Shown one piece after another: positions 28,941 to 41,541 of a stretch of DNA of 64,000 nt. Location: contig NC_011894.1 of assembly GCF_000022085.1 (NCBI RefSeq), positions 274,501-338,500 on the forward strand, written 5' to 3'. The stretch comes from Methylobacterium nodulans ORS 2060. Lineage in GTDB: Bacteria; Pseudomonadota; Alphaproteobacteria; Rhizobiales; Beijerinckiaceae. A model generated the notes under the pieces. The model saw only the letters and a program-made list of their open reading frames with translations, had not been told where the DNA came from and ran no database searches. Position 1 is the first letter of the stretch. The number at the start of each line of letters is the position of its first letter. A program made the position numbers and the translations under genes.

Positions 28941-29921
28941 TCAAGCCTGTTGGGGCTGATTTGGCGTCCAGAGGCGGTCCTGAGCGATGAGGCTGTTGGC
29001 CAGCACGGCGAGCTTGCGGGCCACGGCGATGATGGCGCACTTTGGCTTCTTGCCGTTGGCGATCAGGCGTTCGTGGAAGGCTTTCAGGCCGGCGTTGTGG
29101 CGGGCGGCCGAGAGCGCCGCGAGGTAGAGGACGCGGCGCACGGGCGGGCGGCCGCCCCAGATGACCCGCACGCCCTGGCGCGCGCCGGAATCGTCGGCGA
29201 CCGGCGCCAGGCCCGCCAGCAGGCCGATCTGCCGGCTGCTGCAGGTGCCCAGCTCGGCCAGGCTGGCCACCAGGGTGGCCGCGATCGTGTCCCCGATCGA
29301 GGGGATCGAGACCAGGATGGCATGCCGCCGGGCCAGTCCGGGATCGGCCGCGATGAGCCGGCGGATCTCGCCGGCAAGGGCCTCGATGTCCGCGGCGATC
29401 CTGGCCAGACGGTCCTGGAACTGGCGGATCAGGAACGGGCTTGCGGCCGCGGCCAGCTGGTTCTTGAGGGCGGTTTGTTCGGCCACGGCGCTGTCGCGGG
29501 CCGCGACCAGTTCCTGGAGCGCTTCGAGCGCGTCCGAGGCCGGCGGGCGCTGCGGGGGGGCCATCACCGCGGCAAACTGCGCCAGCACGCGGGCATCGAG
29601 CCGATCGGTCTTGGCCCAGATGCCTTGCGCCTTGGCGAACATGCGCACCCGAAACGGATCGACGACGGCGACCGGCAGGCCCGAGGCATGCAGGCTGCGG
29701 CGGGTCTGGCGGTGCCACTTGCCGGTGGCCTCGACCACGACCAGCCCCAGAGCAAAGCGCCCAAGCCAGCGCTTGAGCTGCCGGATGCCGACCTCGGTAT
29801 TGGCGAACCGCTGGGCTTGGCCGGAGGGGAGGACGTGGACGTCGAGCCAGCTCTTGCTGACGTCGATCCCCACGCTAGACTTGCCCGCGGTCTCTTGTTT
29901 GGACACTTCCTTGCCTTGCAT
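28941..29921 (-). mobile_element. IS110-family transposase (RuvC-like DEDD recombinase)
   Basis: The 326-residue transposase has the IS110 layout: an N-terminal DEDD RuvC-like domain (GIDVSKSWLDV, VVEATGKW, and KTDRLDAR with two acidic residues) and a C-terminal Transposase_20 domain (SIPSIGDTIAATLVASL and GLLAGLAPVADDSGARQG). I chose the ATG at 29921; a longer in-frame start would translate the structured non-coding flank. The frame is intact, so the element may be active. No clear terminal inverted repeats or target duplication were seen, as expected for IS110. Confidence 0.9.
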
Positions 29922-30110
29922 ACGGGACTTGCTCCCCAGCATCTGTTCAGGACAAGAGCCAGAGGGCGGCCGGATCCTGCTTTCCCACGGTGCCAATCCT
30001 AGAGGGAGATCGATCCCGGCCGCCCGCGTCGCGGCCGGTGGCCACCGGCCGCGACGCACCTCACAGCTTGGTGCGCTGGTCGGCCCGTCAAACATGCAAG
30101 AGGGAGCGGG
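29922..30110 (-). ncRNA. Candidate bridge RNA region of the IS110 element
   Basis: IS110 elements carry a structured non-coding RNA in the end flanking the transposase gene, which guides target and donor choice. This ~190-bp flank upstream of the transposase start has no coding signal. It contains a perfect 16+16-bp palindrome at 30026-30057 (arm GCGTCGCGGCCGGTGG) plus smaller stems such as GGCGGCCGG/CCGGCCGCC. AGCATCTGT at 29938-29946 also occurs just outside the other end of the transposase gene (28924-28932). Exact RNA ends are unknown. Confidence 0.45.
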
Positions 30111-31497: not shown

Positions 31498-32463
31498 ATG
31501 GCGTCCCGCCCGCGCTGCTCGCTCGTCCTCAACGGCAAGACCGTCCGCGTCGCGACGGGCGACACGCCCCTGGAGGCGGCGCTCACGGCCGGCGTCGCCG
31601 CCGGCCATGACGGGATCGTCCAGGATGCGATCCCGCGCCTGCCCAAGACCAGCCGCACCCGCCCGCGGCTCGGCGACGGCGCCACCCGCCAGGGGCCGGC
31701 CCCCTCCCCTCTGGCGGCTCTGCGCGCCGCCAAGCGCGCCGGCACCGTTCTGTCCGTCACGCCCCTGTCGGACGCCGTCCGCGAGGTGGTCGTCACCGTC
31801 TCGCGGCCCCTGGACATCCAGCCGGGGCAGGCGATGGAGGTCGCCTTCTCGGGCTTCCCGGCCCGGCCCCTCTGCCCGACCCAGCGGCTCGACGGCGCGA
31901 CGGAACTCAACGAACTCGTCTTCCACCTGCGCCGGGACACCCATCTCGGCAGCGCCCTCGGCGAGGCGGTCGGCCCCGGCCATGCGGTGCGCCTCCGGGG
32001 CCCGGTGGGCCCGGCGTCCTATCGGCCCGGGACCGGACGGCTCGTGCTCGTCTCCGCCGAGACCGGCTTCGCGCCGATCTGGGCCATCGCGCGCGCCGCG
32101 CGCCACCTGGAGCCGGAGCGCGAGATGGTGCTGATCGCCGGCGCCCGCGACGCGGCCGACCTCTACATGCGCCCGGCCCTGGCCTGGCTGCGCGGGACCG
32201 GCGTCACGCGGATCACCCTCGTGGCGGCGGTCAACCGCATCGGTGTGCCCGACGTGCGTCCCGGCCCGATCGCCGCGCATCTTCCGCCGCTCCTCACCAG
32301 CGACTGCGTCCACGCGGCGGGCGCACCGGACGTCGTCCGGGCGGTCGAGCGGCTGGCGGCGGAAGCCGGCGCGTCCTGCGCGGCGATCCCCTTCCTTCCC
32401 CAACTGAGCCGCGCGCGCAGCCTCGTCACGCCCGGAGAGCCGGACGCGACGCACAGGCGGTGA
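31498..32463 (+). CDS. Ferredoxin-reductase-like protein lacking iron-sulfur cysteines
   Basis: The 321-residue protein has an FNR-type FAD/NAD(P) module. The flavin region GFPARPLCPTQRL replaces the usual RxYS, and the nucleotide loop reads AETGFAPIWAI in place of GTGxAP. The first ~40 residues (SLVLNGKTVRVATGDTPLEA) look like the start of a plant-type ferredoxin domain but contain none of its four cluster cysteines. It is therefore a relative of CDP-6-deoxyglucoseen reductase or phenol hydroxylase reductase with altered cofactor sites. Catalytic competence is uncertain. Confidence 0.7.
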   Translation: MASRPRCSLVLNGKTVRVATGDTPLEAALTAGVAAGHDGIVQDAIPRLPKTSRTRPRLGDGATRQGPAPSPLAALRAAKRAGTVLSVTPLSDAVREVVVTVSRPLDIQPGQAMEVAFSGFPARPLCPTQRLDGATELNELVFHLRRDTHLGSALGEAVGPGHAVRLRGPVGPASYRPGTGRLVLVSAETGFAPIWAIARAARHLEPEREMVLIAGARDAADLYMRPALAWLRGTGVTRITLVAAVNRIGVPDVRPGPIAAHLPPLLTSDCVHAAGAPDVVRAVERLAAEAGASCAAIPFLPQLSRARSLVTPGEPDATHRR

Positions 32464-32541
32464 GGCCGGCCGCAGTATTGCCGCGCCGGTGCCGGACACC
32501 CACTATCGGCCGCGGGGCGTGGCGGACGAACAGGGTCGAGG

Positions 32542-35247
32542 ATGGAGCGGGATCCGATCGCGTTCGCGTGGCGCAGCGCCCCGCGCCAGCATACGGCGGC
32601 CATTGCCGTCGCGGTGGGCCTCGGCACGCCCGTGGTGGCGCTCGGCCTCGCCCTGATGCGCGACCTCGTGGACGAGCTCCTTGCCGTCGCCGACCCGGCC
32701 GGGCCCCTTCTGCTCCTCCTGCGCGTGTCGCTGCCGCTGCCCGAACGACTCGGCGGGACGATCACCCTTTTGCCCGGCTGGCCGGTCGATGCGGCGGAGA
32801 TGACGCTCTGGGCGGTCGGCGGGCTCGCGGCCGTCGCGCTCGCCCTCGCCGCCCTCGGCTGGCTGACGGCCCGGCTCTGCTTCGCGGCGCAGGGGGCCGC
32901 CATCGAGCGGCTGCGGCACCGGGCTGCCGAGGCGATCCTGCGGTCCGGCCCCGCCGGCCGGGAGGAGGCGCGGGCGCTCGGCCATCAGGTCGGCGAGGCT
33001 CTCCGGGCGGTCGACGCGCTCCTCGCCGTCGGCCTCCTCGTGCCGGCGCTGACGGCGGGTGCGGTGCTCCTGGCGCTCCTCGTCGCGGCGGCAGCGGCTC
33101 CGCGCCTGGTTCCGGCCGTGGCGGTGAGCGTGGTGGCGGCGGCGCTCGCCCGCGCGCTGCTCAACATCCGTGCGAACCGCCAGAGCGAGCAGCGGCGGGA
33201 GGAGAGCTCAGCCCTGGAGCGCGCCCTCGCCGATCTGGTGCGGCGGCTTCCCGCCGTGCGGGCGCATGGCACGGCGGCCTTCGAGCGCGCCCGGCTCGGC
33301 CACGCGGCCCATTCGGCCCGGCGCGGACTCGCCCGGGCGGAGGCGTCCCTCGCCCGGGCACGGGCCCCGGCCCTGGCGCTCTTCGTCCTGCTGCCGGCCA
33401 TCGTGCTGGCGACCGCGCTCTGGCAGGGCGAGGGCCCGCCGCGCCCGGTCACCGCGGGGGCGCTGGCCGCCGCCTTCGGGGCGCTGGCGCTCGCCGCGAG
33501 CCTGCTCGCCCTGTTCCTGCGCCAGACCGAGCGCCGCCGTGCGGCCCTTCCGGCCTTCCGGGAGATCAGCCGTATCGTGGCCTCCCTGGAGGCACGGGCC
33601 CGGGCCGTCCGACGCCACGGCCCGGCCGCCCGGTTTCCTGCCTCCGGCGCCGTGGCGCTGGCGGGCGTCGCCGCCTACGATCCCGCCTCGGGCGAGCGCC
33701 TGACCGGGCTCGACCTCGTCCTGCCGATGCCGAGCCACGTGGCCATTCTCGGAGGGCGCGGCAGCGGCGGGCGCGTGCTGGCCGCCCTGATCGCCGGCCA
33801 GCTCGAACCCACGGTCGGCCGCGTGACCTATGCGGGCATCGACCTGCGGGCGCTCGATTCGTCGGAGCGGGCGCGCCGCATCGCCTTCGCGGGCGACGAG
33901 CCGGTGCTGATGGCCGGCAGCCTGCTGCAGAACCTCCTCTACGGCGACCTCGCCTTCGTGGACGGTTCGGCGCCCGATCCGGAGGCGCCGGCCGCCCATG
34001 CGCCGCACCTGGAGGAGCGGCTCGTCGAGGCTCTCGCCGTGACCGGTCTCGATGCCCTGGTCACCGCGCGCGGGCTTGCCAGCCTCGTGTCGCGCACCAT
34101 CGACCCGGCCACTGCGGCCGCGATCGTGGAGACGCGCGGGGCGCTGCGCGCCGCCCTCGCGGCGGAGAACGCCGCTCACCTGATCGAGCCCTTCGATCCG
34201 CACCGCTACAACGCCCAGGCGACGGTCGGCGAGAACATCCTGTTCGGCAAGCCGGTCGGCAGCGCCTTCTCCGAGGGGCGGCTCGCGAGCCATCCCTTCA
34301 CCCGCGCGGTGCTGGAGGCCGAGGGGCTCACCCGTCCGATGATCGAGATGGGCCTTTCCATCGCCCGGGCGACCGTCGAGATTTTTTCCGATCTCCCCGA
34401 CGACCACCCGCTCTTCGACGCGTTCTCGCTGTTTCCGGCCGCCGAGCGCGGCTTCTTCGAGGATCTGGTGGCGCGCCAGCCGGAGGCGACGGGCTGGCGG
34501 CGGGGGCCGGCCGGGCAGCGCGACCGCGCCCGGCTGATCGGGCTCGCGTTGCGCTACAGCGAGACGCGGCACCGCTTCGGCCTCATCGACGCCGCCTTCG
34601 AGGAGCGGCTGGTCGCCGCCCGCCACACCTTCGCGGCCCTGCTGCCGGCCTCCTTACGCCCGGCGGTGGAGTTCTACGACCCCGGCAAGGTCACGGTGGC
34701 GGCGAGCCTGGAGGAGAACCTGCTGTTCGGCCGCATCGCGGGCGCCGAGGCCGGAGCCGGGACGCGGGTGCGCGCCGTCATGCAGCGGGTGCTGGCCGAG
34801 CGCGGCCTCGAACGGACCGTCTTCCGCCTCGGTCTCTCCGCCCGGGTCGATCCCCGCGCCGCCGAGAGCAGCCTCGGCGCCCGGGACGGGGTCCTGACGC
34901 CGGCCGAGCGCAGCGCGATCGACCTCGCCCGCTGCCTCGTGCGCCAGCCCGACATCCTCGTCGTGGGGCTGGCCCTCGACGAGCGCAGCCCGGGGGAGAT
35001 CCGCGCGGGCCTCGCGCGGCTGCGCGCGGCGCGGGCGGGGCGGGGTCTCGTCGTCTGCCTGCCGGACGAGGCGAGCCTGTCGCCGGACGCCCCCTTCGAC
35101 GCGGTGATCCGCGCCGAGCGCAACACAGCGCTGCTCCTTGCACCCTCCGGGCCGCCGAACGAGTCCACCCTCTTGCGCCGCGCCGCGGATCCGGGGAACT
35201 TCGCGGACGAGACAGCCGTTCGTGATGGAGTGACCGCGTGGAGATGA
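32542..35247 (+). CDS. Large ABC-type membrane protein with degenerate ATPase motifs
   Basis: A 901-residue protein. The N-terminal ~370 residues form an exporter-like membrane domain. The nucleotide-binding region starts near residue 385. Its P-loop, GGRGSGGRV near 401, lacks the Walker A lysine. It has three Q-loop-like repeats: GSLLQNLLYG (~460), TVGENILFGK (~562) and SLEENLLFGR (~722). The signature is replaced by LTPAERSAIDLARCLV (~785), and Walker B by ILVVGLALDE. I recall a family of ~900-residue ABC proteins with this triple-Q architecture in Hyphomicrobiales, usually with intact ATPase motifs and an MBL-fold neighbour; this copy looks catalytically impaired. Confidence 0.7.
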   Translation: MERDPIAFAWRSAPRQHTAAIAVAVGLGTPVVALGLALMRDLVDELLAVADPAGPLLLLLRVSLPLPERLGGTITLLPGWPVDAAEMTLWAVGGLAAVALALAALGWLTARLCFAAQGAAIERLRHRAAEAILRSGPAGREEARALGHQVGEALRAVDALLAVGLLVPALTAGAVLLALLVAAAAAPRLVPAVAVSVVAAALARALLNIRANRQSEQRREESSALERALADLVRRLPAVRAHGTAAFERARLGHAAHSARRGLARAEASLARARAPALALFVLLPAIVLATALWQGEGPPRPVTAGALAAAFGALALAASLLALFLRQTERRRAALPAFREISRIVASLEARARAVRRHGPAARFPASGAVALAGVAAYDPASGERLTGLDLVLPMPSHVAILGGRGSGGRVLAALIAGQLEPTVGRVTYAGIDLRALDSSERARRIAFAGDEPVLMAGSLLQNLLYGDLAFVDGSAPDPEAPAAHAPHLEERLVEALAVTGLDALVTARGLASLVSRTIDPATAAAIVETRGALRAALAAENAAHLIEPFDPHRYNAQATVGENILFGKPVGSAFSEGRLASHPFTRAVLEAEGLTRPMIEMGLSIARATVEIFSDLPDDHPLFDAFSLFPAAERGFFEDLVARQPEATGWRRGPAGQRDRARLIGLALRYSETRHRFGLIDAAFEERLVAARHTFAALLPASLRPAVEFYDPGKVTVAASLEENLLFGRIAGAEAGAGTRVRAVMQRVLAERGLERTVFRLGLSARVDPRAAESSLGARDGVLTPAERSAIDLARCLVRQPDILVVGLALDERSPGEIRAGLARLRAARAGRGLVVCLPDEASLSPDAPFDAVIRAERNTALLLAPSGPPNESTLLRRAADPGNFADETAVRDGVTAWR

Positions 35248-35395
35248 CCGAGGTTCCGCAACGACGCGACCGGCCATCGCCCGGAGTGGCCGTTCTGCCC
35301 GGTGCAAGGGCAGGGATACTGCGCGGCGTGATGGCGAGGGACGTCCTGTGCGAAGCCGCACATTCTTTTGCGACGAAGCGGATCACCATCCGCGC

Positions 35396-36274
35396 ATGAC
35401 ACAAGAGGGTCTCACTGCGCCGGGTGACCTGACGCTTCGCTTCTGGGGCGTGCGGGGGTCGATCTGCGCGTCCGGCCCGAACTTCGTGGAGTTCGGGGGG
35501 CACACGCCATGCGTCGAGATCCGCTGCGGCGAGCGTCTGTTCGTCATTGATGCGGGCACGGGCCTCAATGCGTTGGGCGCCCATCACGGGGCCGACCTGC
35601 CTCAGCGCATCGACCTGCTGTTCAGCCACCTGCATCTCGACCACGTCACCGGGCTCGCCTTCCTTAAACCCGCGGTGCTCGACAAGAATCGCGAGATCCA
35701 CACCTATTGCGGCAATCTCGACGGGCAGAGCGCCGAGGAGCCGCTGAACCGCCTGTTCTCGCCGCCGCTCTTCCCGATCACCCTCGACGCCCTGCCGGCA
35801 CGCTTCGTCCATCACGGCTTTCGCGCGGGCGAGACCCTGACCTTCCCGGACGGGATGGAAGTCGACACGCTGCCGCTGCAGCATCCGCAGGGCGCCACCG
35901 GCTACCGCTTCCGCCATGCGGGCCGCACCGCCTGCTACATCAGCGACATCGAGCACAGCGAGCCCTGGCCCGAACGGAACCTGCTGCACTTCGTGGAGGG
36001 GGCCGACCTCATCCTCTACGACGGCATGTTCACCGAGGGCGAGTATCCGTCCTGCCGCGGCTGGGGCCACTCCACCTGGGAGAAGGGCGTGGAATTGTGC
36101 CGGGCCGCGAAGGTCGGCCGACTCGGCATCATTCACCTCTATCCCCAGCACGGCGACGCGATGCTGCGGGACATGGAGCAGGCCATGCAGGCCGCGATGC
36201 CGACCGCCTTCATCTGCCGCGAGCGGCAGAAGATCGTGCTGCCGGCCGAGGTCAGGGTGCCCGAACTCGCCTGA
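35396..36274 (+). CDS. MBL-fold metallo-hydrolase
   Basis: The 292-residue protein begins with LRFWGVRGSICASGPNFVEFGG, typical of a phosphodiesterase-like MBL group. It contains the metal motif FSHLHLDH (HxHxDH, near residues 74-81), a later metal-ligand histidine in QHPQGATGY, an Asp in ISDIEHSE, and a C-terminal IIHLYPQH. It should bind two metal ions, and the substrate is unknown. The ATG at 35396 was preferred over 35348 because conservation begins shortly after it. It follows the degenerate ABC gene by 148 bp and is probably in the same functional unit. Confidence 0.82.
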   Translation: MTQEGLTAPGDLTLRFWGVRGSICASGPNFVEFGGHTPCVEIRCGERLFVIDAGTGLNALGAHHGADLPQRIDLLFSHLHLDHVTGLAFLKPAVLDKNREIHTYCGNLDGQSAEEPLNRLFSPPLFPITLDALPARFVHHGFRAGETLTFPDGMEVDTLPLQHPQGATGYRFRHAGRTACYISDIEHSEPWPERNLLHFVEGADLILYDGMFTEGEYPSCRGWGHSTWEKGVELCRAAKVGRLGIIHLYPQHGDAMLRDMEQAMQAAMPTAFICRERQKIVLPAEVRVPELA

Positions 36275-39480: not shown

Positions 39481-41541
39481 TCAGGCGAAGGTGAAGTTGT
39501 CGGCCGTGAGGCTCGCCAGCTGCGTGTTCTGCAGCCGGATCGTGTCGCCCGCGCCGTAAGAGATCACCGCGTCGGCGCCAACCTGCTGAGTCGCCGCCTG
39601 GACGGCGGCGAAGGACGCGAAGGCACCGCCGTTGAAGGCGATCACATCGCGCTCCGCACCGCCGACCGTGAAGTCGCGGATGAGATCCTGGCCGTCGCCG
39701 CGGCCGAACCCGAAGGTGTCGGAGCCGGTGCCGCCCACGAGCTCGTCGTTGCCGGCATTGCCAAACAGCAGGTCGTTGCCCGCCTCGCCGTAGAGCGCGT
39801 CGTTGCCGGCGCCGCCCGACACGTAGTCGTTCCCGCTGCCCGCGCCGATGAAGTCGTGTCCGTCCTCGCCGAACACGGCATCGTTGCCGCCGCTGCCGAA
39901 CAGCGTGTCGTTCCCGTACCAGCCGCGCACCACGTCGTCGCCCTCACCGCCGTCGACCCGGTCGTCACCCGCATCGCCGAAGAGCGTGTCGTTGCCTGCG
40001 CCACCGTCAATCGAATCGTTGCCCGCAAGACCCGACAGGTAATCGTCGCCGGCCGCGCCCCGGATGGTGTCGTCGCCGTCGTTGCCCCAGATCAGGTCGG
40101 CGATCTGGCTGCCCACGAGGCTGTCATTGCCGGCCGTGCCGTTGATGGTCCGGTCGACATACATCATCTGGAGCTGGCCGCCCTCGACGATCTCGGACGA
40201 GCCGAAGGCGTAGTGCGCCTGGGTGTCGAGGAGGAAGGCCTGCCGGCCCGGACCGCCGAAGATCGTGCTGACGTCGAGGACGCCGGAGGATTCCTCGTCC
40301 TGGGTGAAGGGCGGCGTCAGCCCCGAGAAGCGCGCCGGATCGTGCTCACCGAGCTGGGTCAGGGCGTCCGTCGCCGGATCGTACTGCCACATCTTGGCAA
40401 GGCGCGCGTTGTTGCCCGGATCCTCCTGCAGGATGACCCGGCCCTCGGCCGTCACCGTCAGGTTGTCGAACATCACCTGGCCTTCGGTGCCGTCCAGCAG
40501 CATCTTGACCGTGCCGCCGAGTTCCGGACGGGTCACGTCGGTGAAGTCGAGCGCCCAGAGCCGCGAGGGGCTGGTGATCGCGTTGGTGGTGGTGAAGTAG
40601 AAGCGGTTCGGGTTCGTCGGATCCCAGGCGCCGTCCTCCGGACGCAGGAAGGCGGTCACACCCTCGGCGGTGCTCTCGGCCTCCAGCTGGGCACCGGTCA
40701 CGGCCGACACGTCGCCGTTCGGCCCCATCTCCTGCAGCGTGAAGGCGGTGCCCGCCGCGGCCACGGAGGTGGTGTTGGTCTCGGCGGCGAAGGCCGGGAC
40801 CTTGATGCCGTAGAGCTTGCCGTTGGTGAGGCCGGCCTTCTCGATCTCGGTGCCGGTCGCCTGCTTGTTGCCGGCATAGACGTAGAGCTGGCCGCCGGAC
40901 GAATCATCCAGGCCGATCGAGACGGTCTTGGCCCCGGAGCCCGGGTTCGCCACCGAGTTCTCGAAGGAGAAGTTGCCGAGGCGCGGAAGCTCGTAGACGC
41001 GGCCGGCCTCCGGGCCGTTCACGATCCAGGCGAAGGCCCGGCCCTCGGCGCCGCTTTCCTCGCCGTTCATGAAGATGCGGGTCTGGGTGCCGAGGCCGGT
41101 CGTGGCGTCGTAGAAGGCCGAAACCGCCGGCAGGTCGGCCGAGCAGAGCCGCGAGATGGTGGTCGGGCCCTGCACATAGGTGCCGGTGGTGGGGTTGAAC
41201 GTGAAGGTGCTGGTGCCGAGATCGCTCGCGGAGCGCACCTGGAGCGTCGCCTTGTCGATGATCAGCCGGTCGACGAAGGCACCGATCGCGCCATGCGCGC
41301 GGGTGGCGCCGGTGGTCTCACGGAGTTCGTGGTTCACGAGCACCGTGGCGGTGCCGTTGCCGTTGTCGAAGGCGCCGATGCCGTCCGGGATGCCCGCGAA
41401 GCGCCACGGAGTTCCGTCGCTCTTGACGGAACCGGCGACCGTGTCGCCCGCGCTCAGGATCGAGGTGAAAGCGACCTTGTCGGTGGTCGGGACGAGATAG
41501 GGCGATTGCGTAGTCGACGGTCCGGTCTGGTTGGCTGCCAT
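39481..41541 (-). CDS. Secreted PhoX/DUF839-like protein with C-terminal RTX repeats
   Basis: The 686-residue protein has no signal peptide. Residues ~20-460 resemble the PhoX/DUF839 beta-propeller (LVNHELRETTG, GAWDPTNPNRFYFTTT, MFDNLTVTAEGRVILQEDPGN), as in calcium-dependent alkaline phosphatases and phytase-like proteins. Residues ~465-608 are about 15 RTX nonapeptides (GGAGNDTLFGDAGDD pattern) that bind calcium, followed by a C-terminal region typical of type I secretion signals. Export by a type I system and an extracellular phosphatase-like role are inferred; no secretion genes are adjacent. A perfect dyad lies just upstream. Confidence 0.85.
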   Translation of the reverse strand: MAANQTGPSTTQSPYLVPTTDKVAFTSILSAGDTVAGSVKSDGTPWRFAGIPDGIGAFDNGNGTATVLVNHELRETTGATRAHGAIGAFVDRLIIDKATLQVRSASDLGTSTFTFNPTTGTYVQGPTTISRLCSADLPAVSAFYDATTGLGTQTRIFMNGEESGAEGRAFAWIVNGPEAGRVYELPRLGNFSFENSVANPGSGAKTVSIGLDDSSGGQLYVYAGNKQATGTEIEKAGLTNGKLYGIKVPAFAAETNTTSVAAAGTAFTLQEMGPNGDVSAVTGAQLEAESTAEGVTAFLRPEDGAWDPTNPNRFYFTTTNAITSPSRLWALDFTDVTRPELGGTVKMLLDGTEGQVMFDNLTVTAEGRVILQEDPGNNARLAKMWQYDPATDALTQLGEHDPARFSGLTPPFTQDEESSGVLDVSTIFGGPGRQAFLLDTQAHYAFGSSEIVEGGQLQMMYVDRTINGTAGNDSLVGSQIADLIWGNDGDDTIRGAAGDDYLSGLAGNDSIDGGAGNDTLFGDAGDDRVDGGEGDDVVRGWYGNDTLFGSGGNDAVFGEDGHDFIGAGSGNDYVSGGAGNDALYGEAGNDLLFGNAGNDELVGGTGSDTFGFGRGDGQDLIRDFTVGGAERDVIAFNGGAFASFAAVQAATQQVGADAVISYGAGDTIRLQNTQLASLTADNFTFA

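Follow-up and report, generated by a model that had tools for sequence, protein, structure and literature searches.

We examined a 64,000-nucleotide stretch of the Methylobacterium nodulans ORS 2060 genome (contig NC_011894.1, positions 274,501 to 338,500 of the forward strand; hereafter, the window) that carries a gene for a degenerate ATP-binding cassette (ABC) exporter protein. As listed in Table 1, the gene encodes 901 residues and lies between a flavin reductase gene and a gene for a metallo-β-lactamase (MBL)-fold hydrolase, which follows it directly. The transmembrane domain (TMD) of the ABC protein spans residues ~1 to 357, and the nucleotide-binding domain (NBD), including a large insertion, spans residues ~365 to 868. 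Pfam recognizes just residues 388 to 464 as ABC_tran (PF00005). Both the exporter TMD and the NBD fold are present in the predicted (AlphaFold) models, which match ABC exporters in VIA-align comparisons.

Table 1. Genes and sequence features of the locus, with positions numbered within the window
Feature	Positions	Strand	Basis or remark
Pseudo-ABC exporter protein	32542..35247	+	Open reading frame, 901 residues; PF00005; AlphaFold model; VIA-align to ABC exporters; dN/dS
Walker A (degenerate), GGRGSGGRV at residues 404-412, with Gly410 in the Lys column and Arg411 in the Ser/Thr column	33751..33777	+	Alignment columns compared with controls
Repeat unit 1, the original Q-loop region, residues 446-468, terminating in NLLYG	33877..33945	+	
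Repeat unit 2, residues 549-569, EPFDPHRYNAQATVGENILFG, within the NBD insertion	34186..34248	+	
Repeat unit 3, residues 710-730, EFYDPGKVTVAASLEENLLFG	34669..34731	+	
Degenerate signature, residues 785-790, LTPAER where LSGGQR is expected	34894..34911	+	
Walker B (degenerate), PDILVVGL at residues 803-810, with Gly809 in the Asp column and Leu810 in the Glu column	34948..34971	+	
MBL-fold hydrolase (Lactamase_B_2; RNase Z / cyclic-nucleotide phosphodiesterase-like), metal-ligand motifs intact	35396..36274	+	Likely start at 35396
BenC-like flavin reductase lacking the clustered cysteines of a [2Fe-2S] site	31498..32463	+	Judged a neighbor, outside the system

A preliminary description of the locus had held that this protein lacks the Walker A lysine, the LSGGQ signature, and the Walker B aspartate, and the alignment bears this out, with Gly410, LTPAER, and Gly809 at the respective positions; the H-loop column is occupied by Pro841. 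The losses are shared by all 31 orthologs, i.e., the 30 from the genus search, the window's own counted, and that of genome G007. The Walker A Lys column contains Ala (14), Ser (8), Gly (6), or Val (3), and the Ser/Thr column contains Arg (29) or Gln (2). The Walker B Asp column contains Ala (19) or Gly (12), the Glu column Ile (16), Leu (12), or Val (3), and the H-loop column Pro in all 31. The Walker A Lys and Ser/Thr, the Walker B Asp and Glu, the Q-loop Gln, the H-loop His, and either signature Gly are found in none of the 31 orthologs. The preliminary description had named a sequencing error, correction of which would restore the lysine, as a possible refutation; such an error is ruled out because the Lys and Ser/Thr columns of Walker A are degenerate in 31 of 31 orthologs. 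In the same columns, 30 of 30 control exporters of the same class have Lys, Ser/Thr, Asp, Glu, Gln, and His; the control open reading frames (ORFs) were chosen by a strict P-loop, which none of the 30 loci failed.

The segment that had been described as occurring three times does so: NLLYG, NILFG, and NLLFG are located at residues 464, 565, and 726 of the window protein, respectively. Over 147 aligned family sequences, the Asn residue is conserved in 97% at position 464 and in 100% at positions 565 and 726, and the Arg residues ahead of repeats 2 and 3 (Arg532 and Arg694) are 100% conserved. In hhalign comparisons within a 66-sequence family alignment, units 2 and 3 are related with a probability of 98% (E = 6e-14), units 1 and 2 with 81% (E = 1e-5), and units 1 and 3 with 68% (E = 5e-5), so the link of unit 1 to either of the others is weaker than that between units 2 and 3. 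Because the three segments are related by this profile-profile comparison, the repeat is real and not a chance product. AlphaFold models each of units 2 and 3 as a strand, a short helix, and a strand, and unit 1 as a strand and a short helix in the window protein and as a strand, a helix, and a strand in the relative L197. A single NBD of the window protein holds all three NxL[YF]G units, and the protein aligns with the family over its full length.

The ratio of nonsynonymous to synonymous substitution rates (dN/dS) was calculated against the 84%-identical ortholog of genome G036. For this single ortholog pair, the overall value is 0.198; the TMD has a value of 0.192, the two NBD parts have 0.149 and 0.177, the insertion has 0.141, and the last 41 residues have 0.738. 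Over the family, the TMD is more conserved (0.71) than the NBD parts (0.52 to 0.65), and the control exporters show the opposite trend (0.56 for the TMD and 0.70 for the NBD). The loss of so many motifs might be taken to mean that the protein is a decaying relic, or a pseudogene heading for loss, and a few relatives are in fact broken: G007:C2:1024670-1027215 lies in two frames, and L103 of genome G270 contains a stop. We reject this explanation as extremely improbable because dN/dS shows constraint, with the NBD and insertion the most constrained in the pair compared. Furthermore, each of the 37 genus genomes searched contains at least a part of an ortholog (G007, G011, G012, G014, G028, and G029 show it in pieces only), and the insertion contains residues that are invariant over the 147 sequences. 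The AlphaFold model, the VIA-align matches, the motif census, and dN/dS together support a folded ABC scaffold without ATPase residues, the view already put forward in the preliminary description, and place this scaffold under purifying selection.

Members of the same family were found in 131 of 385 genomes of the class, about a third, with best matches of at least 239 bits, compared with at most 86 bits for generic ABC proteins. A sample of 299 genomes from the phylum yielded 25 with a match at E ≤ 1e-30, all from the same class or nearer; the number of non-class genomes in that sample is not stated. A scan of named species yielded at least 593 pattern matches, at least 548 of which are relatives, and 80 were kept, including those of Azospirillum, Tistrella, Sneathiella, Inquilinus, Nisaea, Thalassobaculum, and Ferrovibrio. 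This named set was located through NBD patterns and overlaps the wider set of 118 members used below. Twelve of the 80 records are metagenome bins titled otherwise (10 Gammaproteobacteria, 1 Competibacteraceae, and 1 Anaerolineae, titles unchecked). Plasmid records contributed 344 matches at E ≤ 1e-40, of which 262 cover at least 80% of the query; most come from Rhizobium and Sinorhizobium. Two of 111 class regions, L100 (incomplete) and L103 (stop inside), were excluded from the census, and counts over loci were made without correction for kinship.

The window orthologs form a single clade in the tree (22/22, support 1.0) that groups, at a support of 0.992, with the second copies of the genus and one outside sequence; the stem of the clade is 1.79 substitutions per site long (midpoint root). 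The second family copy of the window's own genome, G000:C7:4450665-4453358, has a gene for a cyclic nucleoside monophosphate (cNMP)-binding protein 117 bases downstream. We infer that the window copy is a duplicated, fast-diverged paralog of the genus that has lost its cNMP and glycosyltransferase neighbors.

In the wider family (n = 118), the catalytic motifs are altered in a different manner. The Walker A Lys column contains Lys in 65 and Arg in 42 members, i.e., one or the other in 107, and the adjacent Ser/Thr column contains Ser/Thr in 9, Glu in 49, and Asp in 42. The Walker B Asp column contains Asp in 22, Asn in 61, and Ser in 21 members, and the catalytic Glu is retained in 58. The Q-loop Gln remains in 24 members, the H-loop His in 34, and the signature Gly at its two positions in 15 and 9. 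Judged from these columns, the commonest state, in which Lys is kept beside an acidic residue and the Walker B Asp is replaced by Asn or Ser, gives the impression of a motif that was re-set and not of one decaying at random. All four of Lys, Ser/Thr, Asp, and Glu occur together in just 2 members, L121 and L173; in L037, L039, L040, and L180, the Ser/Thr and the Walker B Asp are retained, and Lys and Glu are missing. L121 (G307:C81 = L121:6452-9130) retains Lys, Thr, Asp, Glu, His, and an LSGAQ signature amid degenerate relatives, so its putative ATPase site would have been either retained or regained. Because L121 is nested inside degenerate relatives in the tree, the degeneracy looks old.

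The prevalence of Lys or Arg in Walker A, of the catalytic Glu, and of the replacement of the Walker B Asp by Asn is what would be expected if the family were an ATP-binding, non-hydrolyzing switch. The nucleotide would then be bound by Lys or Arg without the usual Mg2+ ligands, a long-lived closed dimer would be opened by cNMP, and the window clade would have lost this function. However, the Q-loop Gln and H-loop His are mostly absent, the nucleotide binding is a prediction, and the idea is inapplicable to the window clade, in which the Lys column is Ala, Ser, Gly, or Val throughout; we consider such a switch possible but on the unlikely side. An exporter that still runs on ATP by means of unusual catalytic residues, i.e., a noncanonical ATPase, would agree with the full exporter fold, the 58 members that keep the Walker B Glu, and the two that keep all four residues, but one or both Mg2+ ligand positions, Gln, His, and the signature glycines are lost in most members. 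The conservation of the TMD above that of the NBD also argues against a noncanonical ATPase, which we regard as highly unlikely.

The genes surrounding the wider family members are recurrent. A cNMP-binding protein (PF00027) is encoded downstream on the same strand at 98 of 118 loci, is fused to the ABC protein at 13, and is absent from 7, and it is present at 74 of 80 loci of the named set. The fusions are C-terminal and give proteins of ~1000 to 1100 residues (L038, L163, L167, L170, L172, L173, L176-L178, L180, L181, L184, and perhaps L070, which is less certain owing to a contig end); the fused cNMP matches of L176-L178 and L180 are weak (45 to 54 bits). All six loci of the named set without the cNMP gene belong to the ten bins titled Gammaproteobacteria; in L228, L240, L259, L260, L269, and L271, which are bins with that title, the cNMP gene is not downstream. 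The phosphate-cassette pattern GE[x]A...R[TS]A is found in 96 of 110 cNMP domains, two of them from the second copies of the genus, and is shared by the regulatory subunits of protein kinase A, to which the cNMP protein aligns. The cNMP protein of L040 matches TIGR03896 ("bacteriocin-type transport-associated" cNMP-binding) with an E value of 1.1e-13, far under the cut-off of that model (51 versus 161 bits), the name of which ties the cNMP domain to transport.

Among the 91 loci flanked on each side by 3 kb or more, 60 have three or more glycosyltransferase matches, as do 59 of 65 loci of the named set, where one locus has none; nine genomes counted via short-flank loci (L069-L077) were ineligible for this count. 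In Mesorhizobium WSM1497, glycosyltransferases, the ABC protein, the cNMP protein, an MBL, a polysaccharide deacetylase, a nucleotide sugar dehydrogenase, and two adenylate/guanylate cyclases are all encoded within 21 kb. Annotated plasmid records list family members as ordinary ABC transporters; one example, RHECIAT_PA0000037 of Rhizobium etli CIAT 652, adjoins two glycosyltransferases and a protein with the cNMP pattern that is annotated as a transcriptional regulator. The ABC proteins of WSM1497 and CIAT 652 are degenerate, with Ala, Glu, Asn, and Arg at the Lys, Ser/Thr, Asp, and Glu positions, and have three N[LV]L[FY]G units each. A cyclase as a standard part of the system was set aside, since nucleotide cyclases occur within 4 kb at 9 of 118 loci, a figure with no background rate behind it. 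A defense-system assignment was rejected as well. PADLOC gave no match for the window ABC and MBL proteins; a wider member gave an ABC-type match only (mad3, 1.3e-13), and the cNMP protein matched TIR/Pycsar models. We read these matches as shared domains.

Compared with type IV ABC exporters (MsbA, Sav1866, TmrAB, and the ComA NBD), the family adds an insertion of ~260 to 300 residues with two extra Q-loop/NxLFG units; the Walker A and B, Q-loop, signature, and H-loop motifs have disappeared from the window clade and are modified in most family members, and the TMD is conserved above the NBD. The fold and some of the motif losses are common to the heterodimeric exporters (TmrAB, TM287/288, BmrCD, and MsRv1273c/72c). 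By the logic of TmrAB, TM287-288, and IrtAB, the protein might therefore be the degenerate half of a heterodimer, supplying the nonhydrolytic site to an intact partner encoded elsewhere. An intact-looking ABC ORF, however, was detected by a regular-expression test near just 7 of 146 loci, with unequal flanks of <1 kb to ~9 kb; R. etli and Mesorhizobium also have importer-type ABC genes within 9 kb. Most members have, in addition, lost the signature glycines with which they would complete the active site of the partner, and the degenerate chains of established heterodimers are not known to have a tripled Q-loop unit. A heterodimeric arrangement is thus unlikely. In the open-access literature, as covered by titles and abstract openings and with subscription journals and preprints outside the scope, no paper on a triple-Q-loop pseudo-ABC family was found. 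The scaffold is already known, and it is the combination of the tripled Q-loop unit, the family-wide altered Mg2+ ligands, and the linked cNMP protein that was not met in that literature.

The neighborhood of the window clade is different. At the 21 other ortholog loci (one of which, L058, has just 1.2 kb of upstream sequence), an MBL gene lies within 4 kb downstream at 18 and a YafK/DpaA-type (YkuD) gene at 17, and neither the cNMP gene nor glycosyltransferases are found at any of them. The window copy therefore belongs to the triple-Q-loop protein family and not to the cNMP-linked gene system. The YkuD-domain protein (L056:10140-11330 and 16 other loci) is closest to LdtF/DpaA/YafK, below cut-off; its gene is located downstream of the ABC gene, ahead of the MBL gene where present, and is missing from the subclade of the window. 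In genomes G004, G008, and G034, the ABC gene has no adjoining MBL gene, which is located elsewhere. The window MBL probably starts at 35396 and not at 35348, as judged by the starts of relatives in the alignment. Its metal ligands (SHLHLDH and a later His, Asp, and His) are conserved in six of six aligned sequences, as is a pattern of its own, DxEH...GHSTW. It matches RNase Z and NF041851 under cut-off and, likewise, falls under every equivalog cut-off listed.

The window MBL is closer to that of L033 (244 bits), where the gene order is ABC-cNMP-MBL-cyclase, than to the paralog in its own genome (120 bits, obtained by another program from a query that was slightly shorter); this suggests an old ABC-MBL linkage in the order. 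As a family-wide part, the MBL was rejected: it occurs within 3 kb at only 4 of 118 wider loci and at none of the 80 named ones, plus Mesorhizobium L287, and because of this rarity the linkage looks restricted to the order of the window. Five relatives are MBL adjacent (L033, WSM1497, L037, L039, and L040), all without Lys and Glu, and L033 and WSM1497 are missing all four of Lys, Ser/Thr, Asp, and Glu; the two members with all four, L121 and L173, have no MBL in the flanks covered. The preliminary description had stated that other Hyphomicrobiales have motif-intact relatives adjoining MBL genes, which is not supported in that form, as none of the five is intact. That description had also called the flavin reductase cysteine-less. 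It has no [2Fe-2S] cysteine cluster, as claimed, but does contain four cysteines, at positions 7, 126, 270, and 294 only, which do not form the four-Cys ferredoxin cluster. A homolog occurs somewhere in 41 of 41 genus genomes and adjoins the ABC gene in the window and at 1 of the 21 other ortholog loci (G036). A system built from three pseudoenzymes, ABC protein, MBL, and reductase, as the preliminary description had suggested, is consequently rejected because the MBL keeps HxHxDH and its other metal ligands and the reductase is nonsyntenic. Elsewhere in the window, positions 28941-29942 (-) encode a transposase, IS110-type in appearance, and positions 39481-41541 (-) a 686-residue protein with the look of a PhoX-type phosphatase and glycine-rich calcium-binding repeats, both judged by eye.

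Taken as a whole, this is a class-wide family with the ABC exporter fold, most members of which are short of Mg-ATP hydrolysis residues; it keeps a strongly conserved membrane domain, and its NBD insertion holds two extra Q-loop/NxLFG copies. The explanation that we favor, to which we give an even chance, is that the NBD has become a nonhydrolyzing platform in a cNMP-controlled envelope-glycan step, with the window copy as an MBL-paired scaffold. The platform would no longer power a transport cycle by ATP hydrolysis and would instead be the receptor at which the cNMP-binding protein docks. Cyclic AMP or cyclic GMP, not ATP turnover, would then shift the state of the membrane domain, and this change would control a step of surface-glycan assembly or export carried out by the neighboring glycosyltransferases and deacetylase. 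An analogy may be seen in SUR (ABCC8/9). SUR2 structures are among the folds matched by the models. SUR is an ABC-exporter fold that serves as a regulatory subunit of ATP-sensitive potassium (KATP) channels, and its NBDs keep nucleotide binding; unlike SUR, the present family is bacterial, its ATP residues are altered or lost, and the linked sensor is a cNMP-binding protein. The window copy would be a structural or signaling membrane scaffold in envelope maintenance that has dropped the cyclic-nucleotide link, and its partner enzyme would be the intact MBL, which may be a cyclic-nucleotide phosphodiesterase; a YafK/DpaA-type peptidoglycan enzyme may join the scaffold in most relatives. More tentatively, and as something possible rather than probable, the scaffold may have switched from ATP cycling to control by the cNMP partner via the tripled-unit NBD and act as an envelope-glycan gate or flippase, with the window copy as a second-step offshoot that can do without nucleotide altogether.

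Several observations weigh against the favored explanation. With Lys or Arg in 107 and Glu in 58 of the 118 wider members, ATP could be bound without being hydrolyzed, and L121, with degenerate relatives all around it in the tree, appears ATPase competent. L037, L039, and L040, which are MBL-adjacent members from the order of the window with Arg for Lys, keep both Mg2+ ligand positions. The cNMP gene is missing at 7 of 118 and 6 of 80 loci, glycosyltransferase matches are zero at 25 of the 91 loci with sufficient flanks, and nearby cyclases are few. Because the window clade has no cNMP neighbor, the cyclic-nucleotide part is not directly transferable to it, and the long stem and midpoint rooting make its position less certain than the support implies. 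The MBL closely resembles RNase Z models, and its score with the NF041851 phosphodiesterase model, 33.6 bits, is far below the cut-off of 400. The support as a whole comes from sequence and predicted models.

Descriptions of ABC transporters treat them as ATP machines and present the degenerate ones mostly as single degenerate sites in otherwise active dimers. Here, by comparison, a whole family has an altered catalytic motif, a TMD conserved above the ATPase part, extra coupling segments, and a linked cNMP protein, which raises the question of whether a second messenger, instead of ATP, runs an ABC scaffold. L121 provides a natural control for the biochemistry, and the family may allow a function to be assigned to the neighboring glycosyltransferase and deacetylase genes in Azospirillum and Mesorhizobium.

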